Positions 1 to 5,535 of a DNA stretch of 33,984 nucleotides are shown here, piece by piece. The stretch is from positions 1-33,984 of the forward strand of contig JAGPCO010000081.1 in the NCBI GenBank assembly GCA_018058095.1, given 5' to 3'. The notes under the pieces are model-generated. The model saw only the letters and a list, made by a program, of their open reading frames with translations. It was not told the DNA's origin and did not search any database. A program made the translations under genes and the position numbers. The stretch is from Kofleriaceae bacterium (GTDB lineage: Bacteria; Myxococcota_A; Polyangia; Haliangiales; Haliangiaceae). How positions within the stretch are numbered: position 1 is the stretch's first letter; each line of letters starts with the position of its first letter.

Positions 1-2
1 GC

Positions 3-389
3 GGCTGGAACAAGGCCTTCGGCCGCCGTGGCCGGGTCTTCGCCGACCGCTACCACGCCCGCCCGGTCACCTCACCGACGCAGATGCGCAACACCCTGCG
101 CTACGTCCTGTTCAACCACGTGAGTCATTCCATCCGGGATTGGCAGGCGAATCGCGGCCAGCTACGCCAGCGCCTGCGCTTCTTCGAGCCCGACCGCTGG
201 TCGTCGGGTCGATGGCACCCGACGAAGTCGGGTGTCTGGGTCATCGACGGGTCGCCGCCTCCCGCGGGCTCCCCGTTGAGCGCTCCGAAGACCTGGCTCG
301 CGCGCGAGGGCTGGCTCCGCGCCGGCGGGCCGATCGACCCGGCCGAGCTGCTGGACCGCCGCCCTCCACGTCCTCCACGCGCGCGATGA
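3..389 (+). CDS. Y1-type (REP-associated) transposase, 5' end outside window
   Basis: The frame is open from the window edge (base 3) to TGA at 387-389, so only about 128 C-terminal residues are visible. The segment has the hallmark order of IS200-like/REP-associated tyrosine transposases: GRVFADRYHAR, then a helix with RYVLFNH that resembles the family's tyrosine helix (YVxxN), then the downstream DRWSSG and TWLAREGW segments common in myxobacterial copies. The His-hydrophobic-His metal motif would lie upstream of the window and cannot be checked. Such enzymes nick and rejoin single-stranded DNA at hairpins. A hairpin palindrome lies 20 bases downstream (409-460), which fits a transposase with its cognate REP element. 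Whether it is active is unknown. Confidence 0.72.
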   Translation, partial: GWNKAFGRRGRVFADRYHARPVTSPTQMRNTLRYVLFNHVSHSIRDWQANRGQLRQRLRFFEPDRWSSGRWHPTKSGVWVIDGSPPPAGSPLSAPKTWLAREGWLRAGGPIDPAELLDRRPPRPPRAR

Positions 390-408
390 CGGTGCCCCGC
401 CGCGATGA

Positions 409-453
409 GGCCTGAGCGAGTGGCAGGATGCTTCGTCAGCATCCTGCTGGGCC

Positions 454-460
<7 letters not shown>
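409..460. repeat. REP-like nested palindrome next to transposase
   Basis: The inner arms GCAGGATGCT (423-432) and AGCATCCTGC (438-447) pair perfectly around a 5-base loop. Outer arms GGCCTGA (409-415) and TCAGGCC (454-460) add a second stem. The same inner arm recurs at 19991-20015, about 19.5 kb away, so it is a dispersed element. The outer right arm includes the stop codon (454-456) of the neighbouring minus-strand gene. Confidence 0.7.
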
Positions 461-1452
<992 letters not shown>

Positions 1453-1458
1453 GGCCGG

Positions 1459-1464
1459 ACTCTA
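1459..1464 (-). promoter_or_regulatory. -10-like box TAGAGT, leaderless ldcA
   Basis: TAGAGT on the minus strand is followed by six bases (CCGGCC) and the GTG start at 1452. The expected transcription start falls on the start codon. No convincing -35 is seen. Confidence 0.5.
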
Positions 1465-1483
1465 CACGGCCGGCCGCTGGACC

Positions 1484-1525
1484 GAAAAAGACAAAGGCGC
1501 TACCTCGGGGGGACGAGGTAGCGCC
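1484..1525 (-). terminator. Rho-independent terminator, minus strand
   Basis: Arms at 1496-1507 and 1514-1525 form a perfect 12-bp stem (GGCGCTACCTCG with its complement) around a 6-base loop. Read on the minus strand the stem is followed by TTTGTCTTTTT (about 1495-1485), a classic U-tract. On the plus strand no T-run follows. It therefore ends a minus-strand transcript that begins somewhere in 1526-1900, where no convincing protein gene exists. Confidence 0.75.
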
Positions 1526-1780
1526 GGGCGCAGATCGCGACAGAGTACTTATTGCCTCAAGTAACGCGTAGTGATGAGGGGGAGGGGACTACGCGTCACC
1601 AAGTCGAAACGTTCTCCTGCCGTGTCGCGCGTGGGATCCTTTCGTGGGGGCAACCGGTGCGGCTCGGGGCTCATTCCTGTGGATGCGCCGAGGGGGGCGA
1701 TGGTTGCGGGCTGGTTCTGACCAGAAACAGAGCAAGCGTCGGGCCAGCTCAGGACGCCCAGATCGTTTGCGCGCCTTCGC
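1485..1780 (-). ncRNA. Candidate C-rich small regulatory RNA
   Basis: This is the only gap over 300 bases (1453-1910). Its composition and codon pattern are unlike the flanking genes, yet it ends in a strong minus-strand terminator, so something untranslated is probably transcribed. On the minus strand there is a 9-bp hairpin (1564-1572 with 1588-1596) whose 15-base loop is CCCCTCCCCCTCATC. The terminator loop is TCCCCC, and further C-tracts occur at about 1645-1651 and 1690-1699. Exposed C-rich loops are typical of small RNAs that pair with Shine-Dalgarno sequences. The 5' end is not defined; TAACTC at 1787-1782 is one weak -10 candidate. A short open frame (1839-1549) does not look coding. 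Confidence 0.4.
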
Positions 1781-1898
1781 GGAGTTACGAGGCGGGACCG
1801 TGTCCAGGTGGCTACTGGTGTTGCCAGATTTGCCGACAACTCGTGGATTCTCTGGCTGGTCGGCTCGCCAGGTTGGCACCGAGGGTGGGGCCCTGAGG

Positions 1899-1904
1899 TA
1901 AAAG
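1899..1904 (+). promoter_or_regulatory. -10-like box TAAAAG before ruvX
   Basis: TAAAAG is followed by six bases and GTG at 1911. The last base deviates from TAnnnT. A GAGG at 1895-1898 is 12 bases from the start, too far for a good Shine-Dalgarno site. Confidence 0.35.
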
Positions 1905-1910
1905 CCTGGG

Positions 1911-2333
1911 GTGCGCGCCCTCGGGTTGGACATCGGCAGCAAGACCATCGGCAAGGCGGTGACCGACGAGGTGGGGATCGCGGCCCACCCGGTCGGCGTC
2001 TGGCAGCGCCGCGGCCTGAGCGCCGACGTCGCCCACGTGCTGGCCGAGGTCGATCGCCTCGAGGCCGCCTGCGTGGTGGTCGGGATGCCGTTCGAGCTGT
2101 CGGGCCGGGAGGGGGTGGCGGCGCGCCGGGTCCGCCTGCTGCTGGGCGCGCTGCGGCAGGCCCGGCCGGCGCTGGTGATCCACGAGCAGGACGAGCGGTT
2201 CTCGACCGCCGAGGCCGAGCGCGTGCTCATCGCCGGGGACGTGTCGCGGGCCCGGCGCAAGGCGGTCATCGACCAGCAGGCGGCGGCGATCATCCTGCAG
2301 TCGTGGCTCGACGCGGCCCGGCCGCCGTCGTAA
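1911..2333 (+). CDS. ruvX: RuvX/YqgF Holliday-junction resolvase-like nuclease
   Basis: At 140 residues it has the normal RuvX length and an RNase H-like fold signature: LDIGSKTIG with acidic Asp7, VVGMPFELSGREG (56-68), the QDERFST block (93-99) and IDQQAAAIIL with Asp121. Family members act on Holliday junctions or process 16S rRNA 3' ends. The start is GTG, with a TAAAAG box six bases upstream. The TAA stop at 2331-2333 runs directly into the Shine-Dalgarno site of mltG, 11 bases before its ATG, so the two are co-transcribed. RuvX followed by MltG is a frequent bacterial pairing. Confidence 0.92.
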   Translation: MRALGLDIGSKTIGKAVTDEVGIAAHPVGVWQRRGLSADVAHVLAEVDRLEAACVVVGMPFELSGREGVAARRVRLLLGALRQARPALVIHEQDERFSTAEAERVLIAGDVSRARRKAVIDQQAAAIILQSWLDAARPPS

Positions 2334-2338
2334 AGGAG
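2333..2338 (+). promoter_or_regulatory. Shine-Dalgarno AAGGAG of mltG
   Basis: AAGGAG lies six bases before ATG 2345 and overlaps the last base of the ruvX stop codon. It is the clearest canonical ribosome site in this part of the window and fixes the mltG start. Confidence 0.8.
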
Positions 2339-2344
2339 ACGTAG

Positions 2345-3484
2345 ATGGCCAGCCGTTCGTTCCGGATCGCTGCGGGCGTGGTGCTGGCGACCCTGATCGT
2401 CCTCGCCGCCGCCGGGCTCTACGTGCGCGGCGTCGCGCTCGACTACCCCGACACGGCGCAGCCGGGGGCGGGCAAGGTCGTCGAGGTCGAGATCAAGCCA
2501 GGCATGAAGTTCGCGGCGGTGCTGGCCGAGCTCGGGCGCGCCAAGGTGGTGGCCCGGCCGCGCTGGTTCAAGTGGTACGCGATGTGGCGCGGCGCCACCA
2601 GCAAGGTCAAGCCTGGGCGGTACGCCCTGCGCGACGATCTGACGCCCAAGGTGCTGCTCGACACCCTGATGAAGGGGGTCAAGGACGAGACCACCAGCGT
2701 GACCCTGGTGCCGGGCAACAACATGCTCGAGTACTTCGCCGCGCTCGAGCGGGCCCGGGTCGCGCCGGCGCGGGGGTTGCTCGCGCTGGCGCGTGACGCC
2801 GAGTTCCTGGCCGCGCACGGCCTGGCCGGCGACAGCGTCGAGGGCGCGCTGTTCCCCGACACCTACGAGTTCCGCGTCGGCGAGCAGCCGGCCCGCGTGC
2901 TCGAGCGGCTGATCGAGCGCCACCGCGCGGTGTGGAACCAGATCGCCAGCGCCAACGGCAAGTCGCTGGCCCGGCTCAAGGAGCGGCTCGGCTGGTCCGA
3001 TCGCGACGTCCTCATCCTCGCCTCCATCGTCGAGAAGGAGGCGGTCAGCCAGGGCGAGCGCCCGCGTATCGCCCAGGTCTTCATCAACCGGCTGACCTCG
3101 CCCGACTTCAACCCCAAGCGGCTCGAGACCGACCCGACCATCCGCTACGGCTGCACCGTGCCCGAGGTGCGCTCGGCCGGCTGCAAGGCGTGGGAGCCCG
3201 ACGGCATCTTCGAGCGCATGATCGCCGGGCAACCGTACGGCAGCAATCGGCTGCGGCGGGCCCAGCTCGACGACGCCGACAACCCGTACAACACCTACCA
3301 GCACGCCGGCCTGCCGCCCGGGCCCATCAGCAACCCGAGCCGGGCCTCGCTCGAGGCGGCGATGAAGCCCGACGGCTCGAACTACTTCTACTTCGTCGCC
3401 CGCAGCGCGACCGAGCACACCTTCTCGCGCACGCTGGCCGACCACCGCAAGGCGGTCGAGGCTTACGTCAAGAGCCAGCCGTAG
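2345..3484 (+). CDS. mltG: Endolytic murein transglycosylase MltG
   Basis: The 379-residue protein has one N-terminal membrane helix (about 6-26) and a periplasmic YceG/MltG domain. It cleaves nascent glycan strands near the membrane and is thought to set strand length. Catalytic Glu230 is in ASIVEKEA. Other family blocks follow in order: PGRYAL (90-95), GALFPDTYEF (167-176), VFINRL (245-250), LETDPTIRYG (260-269), PYNTYQHAGLPPGPISNPS (314-332) and YFYFVA (347-352). A short insert (EVRSAGCKAWEPDG) between the LETDPTIRY block and the NPYNTY block is typical of deltaproteobacterial copies. An ideal AAGGAG at 2333-2338 supports the start. It is downstream of ruvX in the same transcript. Confidence 0.95.
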   Translation: MASRSFRIAAGVVLATLIVLAAAGLYVRGVALDYPDTAQPGAGKVVEVEIKPGMKFAAVLAELGRAKVVARPRWFKWYAMWRGATSKVKPGRYALRDDLTPKVLLDTLMKGVKDETTSVTLVPGNNMLEYFAALERARVAPARGLLALARDAEFLAAHGLAGDSVEGALFPDTYEFRVGEQPARVLERLIERHRAVWNQIASANGKSLARLKERLGWSDRDVLILASIVEKEAVSQGERPRIAQVFINRLTSPDFNPKRLETDPTIRYGCTVPEVRSAGCKAWEPDGIFERMIAGQPYGSNRLRRAQLDDADNPYNTYQHAGLPPGPISNPSRASLEAAMKPDGSNYFYFVARSATEHTFSRTLADHRKAVEAYVKSQP

Positions 3485-3504
3485 CTGCTCGCAGGGCGCT
3501 GACA

Positions 3505-3549
3505 AACGCCCCGTGCCCGTGCCCGTGCCCGTGCCCGAATCTGGGCGTT
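3505..3549. repeat. CCGTGC hexamer array flanked by inverted arms
   Basis: Four perfect CCGTGC units (3511-3534) plus a partial unit lie between AACGCCC (3505-3511) and its complement GGGCGTT (3543-3549). The complementary array occurs at 3664-3699. Confidence 0.8.
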
Positions 3550-3663
3550 CAGGCTCCGGCCAGACCAGCCAGCGTGCGACGACTCGCGGGTTGCCAGGAC
3601 GGTGGCGGCGACGACGACGGCCTTGCGGCGGTCGAGGAGGTCGAGGATCGCCGCCCGAGCGAT

Positions 3664-3699
3664 CGGGCACGGGCACGGGCACGGGCACGGGCACGGGCG
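3664..3699. repeat. CGGGCA hexamer array, inverted partner
   Basis: Five CGGGCA units are followed by CGGGCG. This is the reverse complement of the array at 3511-3537, so the two could pair into a long stem enclosing about 125 bases (3538-3663). No gene was recognised in that enclosed segment. Confidence 0.8.
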
Positions 3700-3700
3700 C

Positions 3701-3727
3701 GAGGAACGCCGCTGCGCGGCGTTCCTC
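3701..3727. terminator. Hairpin between convergent genes
   Basis: GAGGAACGCCGC (3701-3712) pairs perfectly with 3716-3727 around a 3-base loop. It sits between the ends of mltG (3484) and the minus-strand lipoprotein gene (3735). There is no T-run on either side, so termination is inferred from position only. Confidence 0.5.
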
Positions 3728-3734
3728 TGCCCTG

Positions 3735-4466
3735 CTAGGCCCCGGTCGGCATGACGACGAGATCGATGCGGTTACGGATGCGCACGCGCACGGTCGAGCC
3801 GGCGACGGCGCCGGCCGGGACGACGACGTCGAACCGGCGCAGCTCGAGCTCCTCGGTCTCGGTCTGGTCGGGCTTGGACTTGAGCGCCCCGGCCGGCAGC
3901 GAGTAGGTGCCGCTGTCGGGGATGGTGACCGGATCGGTCTCCTTGGTCTCGATGGTCGCGCTGTCGGCTGGCTCGTCCGACGACCACGCCACCACCAGCG
4001 GCATGGTCGCGTCGACCGTGGCCCCGGGCGTGGGCGAGGTGATCGTGTGCAGGTCCGGTCCATCGACGACGACGCCGTCGATGGTGTCGGTGCCCGACTC
4101 GACGTCGACCTGGTAGGCCTCGTGGTAGCCGTTCTGCTGCCCGACCCAGCGCCCGTTGTCGCGCGCCGGGTCGTACACCAGGTCGACCGAGCCGCCGAGG
4201 GAGGTGATCGTCACCGTGCCAGCGGTGACCGCGGCGCCGGCCTTGGTCAGGCGGACGCTGAAGCTGGTGGTGTACTGCGAGGGATCGGTGCTGTTGCTGA
4301 CGATCGCCTCGGCGTTGAGGTCCGCATCGATGGACAGGGTCTGGGTCCCGCCGCCGACGTCGTCACCGACGCCCGGGGACAGCGGCCCGCCGCCGTCCCC
4401 GCCGCACGCCGCCAGGGCCACACAAAGGCTGGTCGCGAGGAGTCCAGAACAGGTGCTTCGCTGCAT
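3735..4466 (-). CDS. Putative lipoprotein, unknown function
   Basis: The 243-residue protein begins with a type II signal peptide and lipobox LAAC (Cys21), followed by CGGDGGG, so it should be a lipid-anchored envelope protein. ATG 4466 is chosen because GGAGG precedes it at good spacing and the signal peptide starts there; the frame stays open upstream to 4562. The mature part is beta-rich, with a block of the form TSPTPGATVDATMPLVVAWS (about 147-166) that resembles Ig/fibronectin-like lipoprotein domains. No enzymatic motif is visible. It is divergent from the TIGR02147 gene and shares a relatively AT-rich 170-bp intergenic region with it. I do not recognise the family. Confidence 0.8.
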   Translation of the reverse strand: MQRSTCSGLLATSLCVALAACGGDGGGPLSPGVGDDVGGGTQTLSIDADLNAEAIVSNSTDPSQYTTSFSVRLTKAGAAVTAGTVTITSLGGSVDLVYDPARDNGRWVGQQNGYHEAYQVDVESGTDTIDGVVVDGPDLHTITSPTPGATVDATMPLVVAWSSDEPADSATIETKETDPVTIPDSGTYSLPAGALKSKPDQTETEELELRRFDVVVPAGAVAGSTVRVRIRNRIDLVVMPTGA

Positions 4467-4635
4467 GTCGCCTCCGTATTCTTCGAGCATAGGCTCTGTT
4501 GCCAACCATACGCCGATCCGGTGCAGAATAGCAAGCAAAACCAATATATTACACGAACACACAGGTATTCTGTCAGTGTACGGATTTGTGACAGATGGGC
4601 TGCCCAGCCCGACCTGGGTCGCCTATCCTGGCGGG
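4467..4635. promoter_or_regulatory. Divergent, AT-rich intergenic promoter region
   Basis: Bases about 4480-4600 are clearly richer in A/T than anything around them (for example AATATATTACACG at 4539-4555). The region separates the minus-strand lipoprotein (start 4466) from the plus-strand regulator (start 4636). It probably holds both promoters; only the TATCCT box at 4624 is assigned with any confidence. Confidence 0.45.
4624..4629 (+). promoter_or_regulatory. -10-like box TATCCT, leaderless start
   Basis: TATCCT is followed by six bases and GTG 4636, the start that also fits the protein family. No Shine-Dalgarno site is present. Confidence 0.5.
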
Positions 4636-5535
4636 GTGCCGCGGGCCCTGGCCATCGACGTCTTCTCGTACCTGAGCTACCGCGCGTTCCTGCGTGATGC
4701 GTACGTCAACCTCAAGCAGAACCAGCGCGGCTTCTCGTTCCGCTGGTTCTCGCGCAAGGCCGGGCTGTCGTCGCCCAACTTCCTCAAGCTGGTGATGGAC
4801 GGCAAGCGCAACCTGTCGTCGCGCGGCGCCCAGGCCTTCGCCACCGCGCTCGGCCTGAGCGGGCGCGAGGCGTCGTTCTTCTACGAGCTGGTCGACTTCG
4901 AGCAAGCCGACACCGCGGCCGACAAGAACCGGGCCTGGGACCGGCTGTCGTCCTACCAGGGGCACCGCCGGGTCCGCGCGCTCGAGCGGCACCAGTTCGA
5001 CTACCTGTCGCGCTGGTGGAACCCCGCCATCCGCGAGCTGGTCGCGTTGCCGACGTTCCGCGACGACCCGGAGTGGATCGCGCAGCAGCTGCGGCCGGCG
5101 ATCACCGCGGCCCAGGCCGCGTCGGCGCTCGAGCTCTTGCTCGGCCTCGGCTTCGTCGTGCGCGGCGAGGACGGCCGGCTGGCGCAGAGCGAGCCGCTGC
5201 TGTCGACCGGCCCCGAGGTGCGGTCGCTCGCGGTCGGCAACTTCCACCGGCAGATGATGCAGCGCGCGGCCGAGGCCATCGAGCTGGTCGATCGGAGCGA
5301 GCGCGAGATCTCGGGCCTGACGGTGGCGCTGTCGCACACGACCTTCCAGCTGTTCAAGGACAAGATCCACGCCCTGCGCAGCGAGCTGCTCGAGCTGTCG
5401 GGGCGCGAGACCGCGCCCGATCGGGTGATCCAGGTCAACTTCCAGCTCTTCCCGCTGGCGGTCGTGAACGAACCCGCCGCCGGCGACGACCCACCTTCCG
5501 GCCCCCGCCGGCCGCGGCCCAAGGAGCAGCCATGA
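4636..5535 (+). CDS. TIGR02147 family (DUF4423) predicted regulator
   Basis: The frame is open from far upstream, but the family homology begins at about residue 4 after GTG 4636, giving 299 residues, the usual length. Recognisable blocks are DVFSYLSYRAFLRDAY, FSFRWFSRKAGLSSPNFLKLV, DGKRNLS, ALGLSGREASFFYELVDFEQA and a WWNPAIRELVAL segment. The SSPNFLKLVMDGKRNLS part resembles a helix-turn-helix, so DNA binding is plausible; this is an inference as the family has no well established function. GTG starts further upstream are possible. The TGA stop overlaps the ATG of the next lipoprotein gene (ATGA), implying translational coupling. A TATCCT box lies six bases before the chosen start. Confidence 0.85.
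   Translation: MPRALAIDVFSYLSYRAFLRDAYVNLKQNQRGFSFRWFSRKAGLSSPNFLKLVMDGKRNLSSRGAQAFATALGLSGREASFFYELVDFEQADTAADKNRAWDRLSSYQGHRRVRALERHQFDYLSRWWNPAIRELVALPTFRDDPEWIAQQLRPAITAAQAASALELLLGLGFVVRGEDGRLAQSEPLLSTGPEVRSLAVGNFHRQMMQRAAEAIELVDRSEREISGLTVALSHTTFQLFKDKIHALRSELLELSGRETAPDRVIQVNFQLFPLAVVNEPAAGDDPPSGPRRPRPKEQP

Follow-up and report, generated by a model that had tools for sequence, protein, structure and literature searches.

The minus strand between ldcA and ruvX, in the 33,984-nucleotide stretch of Kofleriaceae DNA analysed here (the window), carries a strong rho-independent terminator. No credible protein gene lies between the two genes, in agreement with the initial annotation, which had raised the possibility that a self-terminated gene for a C-rich small RNA is located between 1485 and 1900. 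That proposal is strongly supported, and the case is better than first put, since the stems and the C-rich loops are conserved with covariation, and comparative sequence analysis confirmed that the minus strand from 1485 to 1746 carries a non-coding RNA gene (Table 1). The extent first given to the region requires adjustment, as it includes the putative promoter; the predicted transcript runs from about 1720 to 1485 (about 235 nt), and the remainder, up to about 1830, would consist of promoter and upstream control sequences. Few regulatory RNAs are known in myxobacteria, of which Pxr from the Cystobacterineae is the best studied (PMC5684412). None of the papers retrieved in this analysis describes a regulatory RNA from Kofleriaceae.

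Table 1. Coordinates of the RNA gene, its predicted control elements and its neighbours in the window
Feature	Position	Strand	Basis or remark
Rho-independent terminator (C-rich loop 1513-1508, tail 1495-1485)	1485..1525	minus	strong terminator-like site; covariation
Conserved RNA core (model R1 positions 1-160)	1485..1633	minus	cmsearch 125.6 bits, E 7.9e-25
Closing stem P1, 5' arm (GCGCGACACGGCAGGAG)	1614..1630	minus	base of stem invariant in sequence, covarying above
Closing stem P1, 3' arm (CTCTGTCGCGATCTGCGC)	1528..1545	minus	pairs with 1630-1614
Internal-loop strand AAnnTTTCGACT	1602..1613	minus	nearly invariant in all homologs
Internal-loop strand GGCAAnnAGTA	1546..1556	minus	nearly invariant in all homologs
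Inner hairpin (loop 1587-1573, CCCCUCCCCCUCAUC)	1560..1600	minus	fold; helices 3 and 4 covary
Predicted 5' leader	1634..1720	minus	start placed from the promoter position
Sigma-54-type promoter TGGCCCGACGCTTGCT (GG-N10-GC)	1731..1746	minus	10/11 consensus positions
Upstream boxes TGGCAAC (1826-1820) and GTAGCCA (1815-1809)	1809..1826	minus	likely activator sites, from sequence
ldcA, LD-carboxypeptidase	454..1452	minus	PF02016/PF17676; neighbour, outside the RNA gene
ruvX	1911..2333	plus	PF03652; divergent neighbour, conserved synteny marker

The core of the RNA comprises the closing stem P1, a large internal loop, P2, a fast-evolving P3 with a conserved loop, a C-rich 3' bulge and the terminator. 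P1 follows the pattern GCGCGA... paired with ...TCTGCGC. The two strands of the internal loop are conserved more strongly than the stems, and this loop may be involved in protein binding or in stabilisation of the RNA. The P3 loop is of the conserved type CCCTCCCC(C/CC)TCATC, or CCTCCCCTCATC in one locus (L039). The window copy is an outlier: it has a single continuous stem in place of P2 and P3 and lacks the middle C-rich bulge. A hairpin with a C-rich loop had been described in the initial annotation and is real, but its stem has 13 pairs (1600-1588 with 1572-1560) and not 9. The minus-strand sequence from 1610 to 1484 folds at -50.3 kcal/mol compared with -29.3 +/- 3.1 kcal/mol for shuffled sequences (z -6.8).

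The terminator is as originally described, with a stem of 12 pairs (minus strand, 1525-1496) and the loop TCCCCC, followed by the tail TTTGTCTTTTT. It is the sole strong terminator-like site in positions 1-5000 of the window, a count to be read against an average of 1.0 site in shuffled sequences. In the alignment of homologs the terminator stem (helix 5) shows 99.4% pairing, and five of its eight pairs have double changes. The terminator segment is apparently tandemly repeated before ruvX in one homologous locus (L038, 7044-7203, 3' of the RNA), where at least two further copies of the repeat unit, GTTCCAGTCAGGTC...GGGGCCTTTATTTTT, are present.

Homologs of the RNA are confined to one family. 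A blastn search of 56 genomes recovered 16 further copies, all from the same family, and R1, a covariance model based on 16 sequences, identified a single copy in each of 20 of the 30 family genomes, with E values of about 1e-22 to 1e-32. These relatives are mostly MAGs titled Kofleriaceae or Myxococcales. R1 had no match in the other 210 class genomes sampled or beyond the family in a 377-genome phylum sample, both of which were searched with stricter filters that could lose weak matches, and no homologs were found in phages and plasmids. A pattern scan of GTDB contigs returned 20 genuine loci in records with titles such as Kofleriaceae, Myxococcales or Deltaproteobacteria; two hits in Acidobacteria (L046, L049) were discarded as chance because the covariance model gives no match to them. 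Five family genomes (G009, G010, G013, G025 and G026) have neither the RNA nor a detectable ruvX, a joint absence that suggests gaps in the assemblies, and in two further cases (G027 and L043) the RNA copy is cut off by the contig end. The remaining family genomes without the RNA belong to other genera. In one of these, genus g2, ldcA and ruvX are directly adjacent without an intervening RNA, so the gene is specific to a sub-lineage.

In the relatives that keep the ruvX neighbourhood, the stems and C-rich loops are conserved and the stems covary, which is the outcome that the initial annotation had made the test of its proposal. A plain MAFFT alignment contains double changes in 19 of 38 pairs and gives a covariation score of 0.270, compared with 0.148 for shuffled alignments and at most 0.109 when the structure is slid along the alignment. 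The corresponding values for the model-fitted alignment, which leans towards structure, are double compensatory changes in 23 of 38 pairs, 95.7% of cells paired, and a score of 0.364 compared with 0.139 (shuffled) and at most 0.084 (slid). These comparisons show that a structured RNA with a terminator is under selection, with two or three C-rich tracts predicted to be accessible and a location downstream of a sigma-54-type promoter motif.

An open frame of 96 codons crosses the window copy and might be taken to indicate a small protein gene or a dual-function RNA. No reading frame is common to the homologs; start, frame and length differ among them, and many have no ATG or GTG open reading frame that ends within the transcript. 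The coding interpretation was rejected for these reasons and is extremely improbable.

The genomic setting bears on whether the RNA acts in cis. The RNA gene adjoins ruvX-mltG in all 21 loci compared, and a leader with an attenuating terminator that controls the next gene downstream (ruvX-mltG or ldcA) would account for the 11 loci in which a ruvX of the same orientation lies 3' of the terminator, in many cases only tens of bases away, as well as for the position of ldcA after the terminator in the window. The RNA points away from ruvX in the other 10 loci, however, and the gene 3' of the terminator may be ldcA, ruvX, another gene or a convergent gene (the next gene differs or is convergent in L047 and L037, for example). 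The covarying structure moreover includes no conserved antiterminator that competes with the terminator stem. Because the orientation relative to ruvX flips and the downstream gene varies, a cis-acting role is very unlikely and a free-standing RNA is indicated.

A sigma-54-type promoter at 1746-1731 was overlooked in the initial annotation. Sites that match at least 9 of the 11 consensus positions occur within 320 nt in 20 of the 21 loci, 101-229 nt upstream of the core, whereas a 320-nt stretch would contain one by chance in 2.6% of loci; the 21st locus (L040) has a sigma-54-type site at -337. The promoter spacer varies among loci while TGG and TGCT persist. Farther upstream, boxes of the form TGGCNAC/GTNGCCA, which are repeated in most loci, number 45 in 20 loci compared with 2.4 in shuffled sequences, a descriptive figure given that the motif was chosen post hoc and the loci are related. 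The genome encodes RpoN, and neither a gene nor a motif for a sigma-54 activator was found within the loci examined. The leader, measured from the predicted start to the core, is between about 75 and 311 nt long among relatives. Since leader length is variable and core length constant, the core is suggested to be the working part and the leader is perhaps trimmed, as has been proposed for the conversion of Pxr-L to Pxr-S (PMC5684412). The leader of the group B loci contains a hairpin whose purine-rich loop (around TTCCAAGGAATA) is conserved; most loci of the other group lack this hairpin.

The function of the RNA most plausibly resides in its unpaired C-rich tracts, two or three of which recur in relatives. 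The main loop always consists of a C-rich run with TCATC at its end, and is predicted to be open in 19 of 20 copies (unpaired probability 0.93-1.0; 1.0 for the window loop). The loop contains CCUCC, the core of an anti-Shine-Dalgarno (anti-SD) sequence, in all relatives, so that an accessible CCUCC-containing loop of the kind found in C-rich anti-SD small RNAs is present. Such loops are known from mycobacterial B11/6C RNA (RF01066), in which C-rich unpaired hairpin loops, a feature also seen here, repress mRNAs by pairing with G-rich ribosome-binding sites, as shown with compensatory mutations, in bacteria without known chaperones (PMC10470900). The ar14/NfeR1/cuckoo RNAs (RF02344) are built of three hairpins and carry their C-rich anti-SD motifs where the RNA is unpaired (PMC10746234), an arrangement shared by the RNA described here. 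Translational repression in trans is favoured because of the CCUCC-containing loop and these two precedents, and the RNA is probably a family-specific, Hfq-independent regulator, under sigma-54 control as judged from its promoter motif, whose C-rich loops would pair with mRNAs, much as in B11/6C and ar14 and perhaps in Pxr. A signal-responsive enhancer-binding activator would turn on the sigma-54 RNA polymerase, and the resulting transcript of about 235 nt would perhaps be trimmed to near the core. The C-rich loops, chiefly of the CCCUCCCC(C)UCAUC type, would then pair with G-rich or Shine-Dalgarno segments at several mRNA starts and block translation without Hfq, which was not detected in the genome. 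The hfq gene is likewise reported missing from M. xanthus (PMC5684412).

Action of the loop on Shine-Dalgarno sites is plausible, although the target analysis gave little signal. Among 445 roughly called genes in 653 kb, a part of the genome, SD-like 4-mers precede 22% of starts compared with 10% of internal codons, so that the original remark on weak Shine-Dalgarno usage was roughly right; this low usage limits the pool of targets. In the same gene set, complementarity to the loop at start regions is barely above that at internal codons and is weaker than for shuffled loops, and no perfect 10-nt loop complement was found at GGGGGAGGGG-N3-10-ATG in the genome. RNAs such as CrcZ and CsrB act by titrating RNA-binding proteins, and the weak target signal would also fit an RNA of this sort, in which the C-rich tracts or the internal loop bind a protein and do not pair with mRNA. 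Several similar C-tracts per molecule and the conservation of AAnnTTTCGACT and GGCAAnnAGTA beyond that of the stems agree with titration, and the conserved internal loop makes it a real rival. The anti-SD core CCUCC in the C-rich loop of all relatives argues against it, as does the lack of a candidate protein, Hfq included, and protein titration is on the whole unlikely. Pairing of the loops with mRNAs in trans is the preferred reading.

No Rfam 15 family is matched at its gathering threshold, and the Rfam model of 6C RNA (RF01066) has no match in the window up to E 5-10. Compared with 6C RNA, the RNA described here comes from another phylum and has a long P1 closure, a conserved internal loop, UCAUC at the loop end and a sigma-54-type promoter. 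The window does match ar14 in cmscan at E 0.004-0.007, and both RNAs have C-rich loops, which could suggest a member of this alphaproteobacterial cuckoo-type family acquired by transfer. The score of the window is 25.9 bits, however, far short of the gathering threshold of 58.8; in 12 homologous loci the ar14 model finds nothing at E up to 1, and the RNA is confined to one myxobacterial family. The RNAs of the ar14 group carry the motif CCUCCUCCC, and NfeR1 has a sigma-70-type promoter (PMC10746234); in place of CCUCCUCCC in three unpaired regions, the RNA described here has CCCUCCCC(C)UCAUC plus C-runs. This lead was dropped because the homologs fail to match, and membership in ar14 is hardly credible. 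The RNA resembles 6S RNA in its length (about 160-200 nt) and in having a closing stem and an internal loop, and identity with 6S (RF00013) was rejected because the 6S RNA of this genome is located elsewhere, at G000:C141, away from this gene.

Pxr of Myxococcus has a predicted sigma-54 promoter and three stem-loops in a host without hfq, and a single C-to-A change in its first loop abolishes function (PMC5684412, PMC5568312). The two RNAs share a sigma-54-type promoter (by sequence match in the case described here), and the first loop of Pxr is C-rich, with a short match, GGUGGUUCCC...CCCCCU, to the RNA described here. The Pxr query was assembled from the published sequences of primers and of a northern probe (PMC5568312), so that errors of a few bases are possible where the pieces meet, and the similarity exceeds that of shuffled sequences in several homologs only and is confined to the C-rich hairpin. 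Unlike the RNA described here, Pxr is about 108 nt long with three separate hairpins and no P1; it is located downstream of pxrR (nla19), next to the NtrC-like pxrR/pxrK, whereas the RNA described here is always beside ruvX. Pxr blocks development and exists in long and short forms. No Pxr loci were found in the sampled phylum genomes. The resemblance to Pxr may reflect homology or convergence. A more speculative and distinctly improbable idea is that the RNA plays the part of Pxr in Kofleriaceae: switched on through sigma-54, this C-rich RNA would restrain a starvation or multicellular programme, and its conserved internal loop would dock an RNA-binding protein that replaces Hfq.

The RNA combines a C-rich and probably Shine-Dalgarno-directed design, otherwise described in actinobacteria and alphaproteobacteria, with sigma-54-type control, and it does so in bacteria that make little use of Shine-Dalgarno sequences and in which Hfq was not detected. 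The covariance model is ready for use in genome annotation, and the predicted promoter, the predicted boundaries and the mutable loops are defined closely enough for direct testing.

Several features of the neighbourhood are recorded separately. In two loci of genus g2 (L058 and L059), compared with the window, ldcA and ruvX are on the same strand. In the relatives that carry the RNA, ldcA and the RNA gene have each been inverted independently with respect to ruvX, which makes the region a small rearrangement hotspot. The plus-strand frame at 3-389 is truncated at the window start, and the fragment has no Pfam hit; its translation resembles a REP-associated transposase-type protein. Just 3' of mltG, a hexamer array (CCCGTG)n at 3510-3537 is followed about 127 nt later by an array of the reverse complement, (CGGGCA)n, at 3664-3698; together they could fold into a large hairpin or act as a bidirectional element resembling a terminator.
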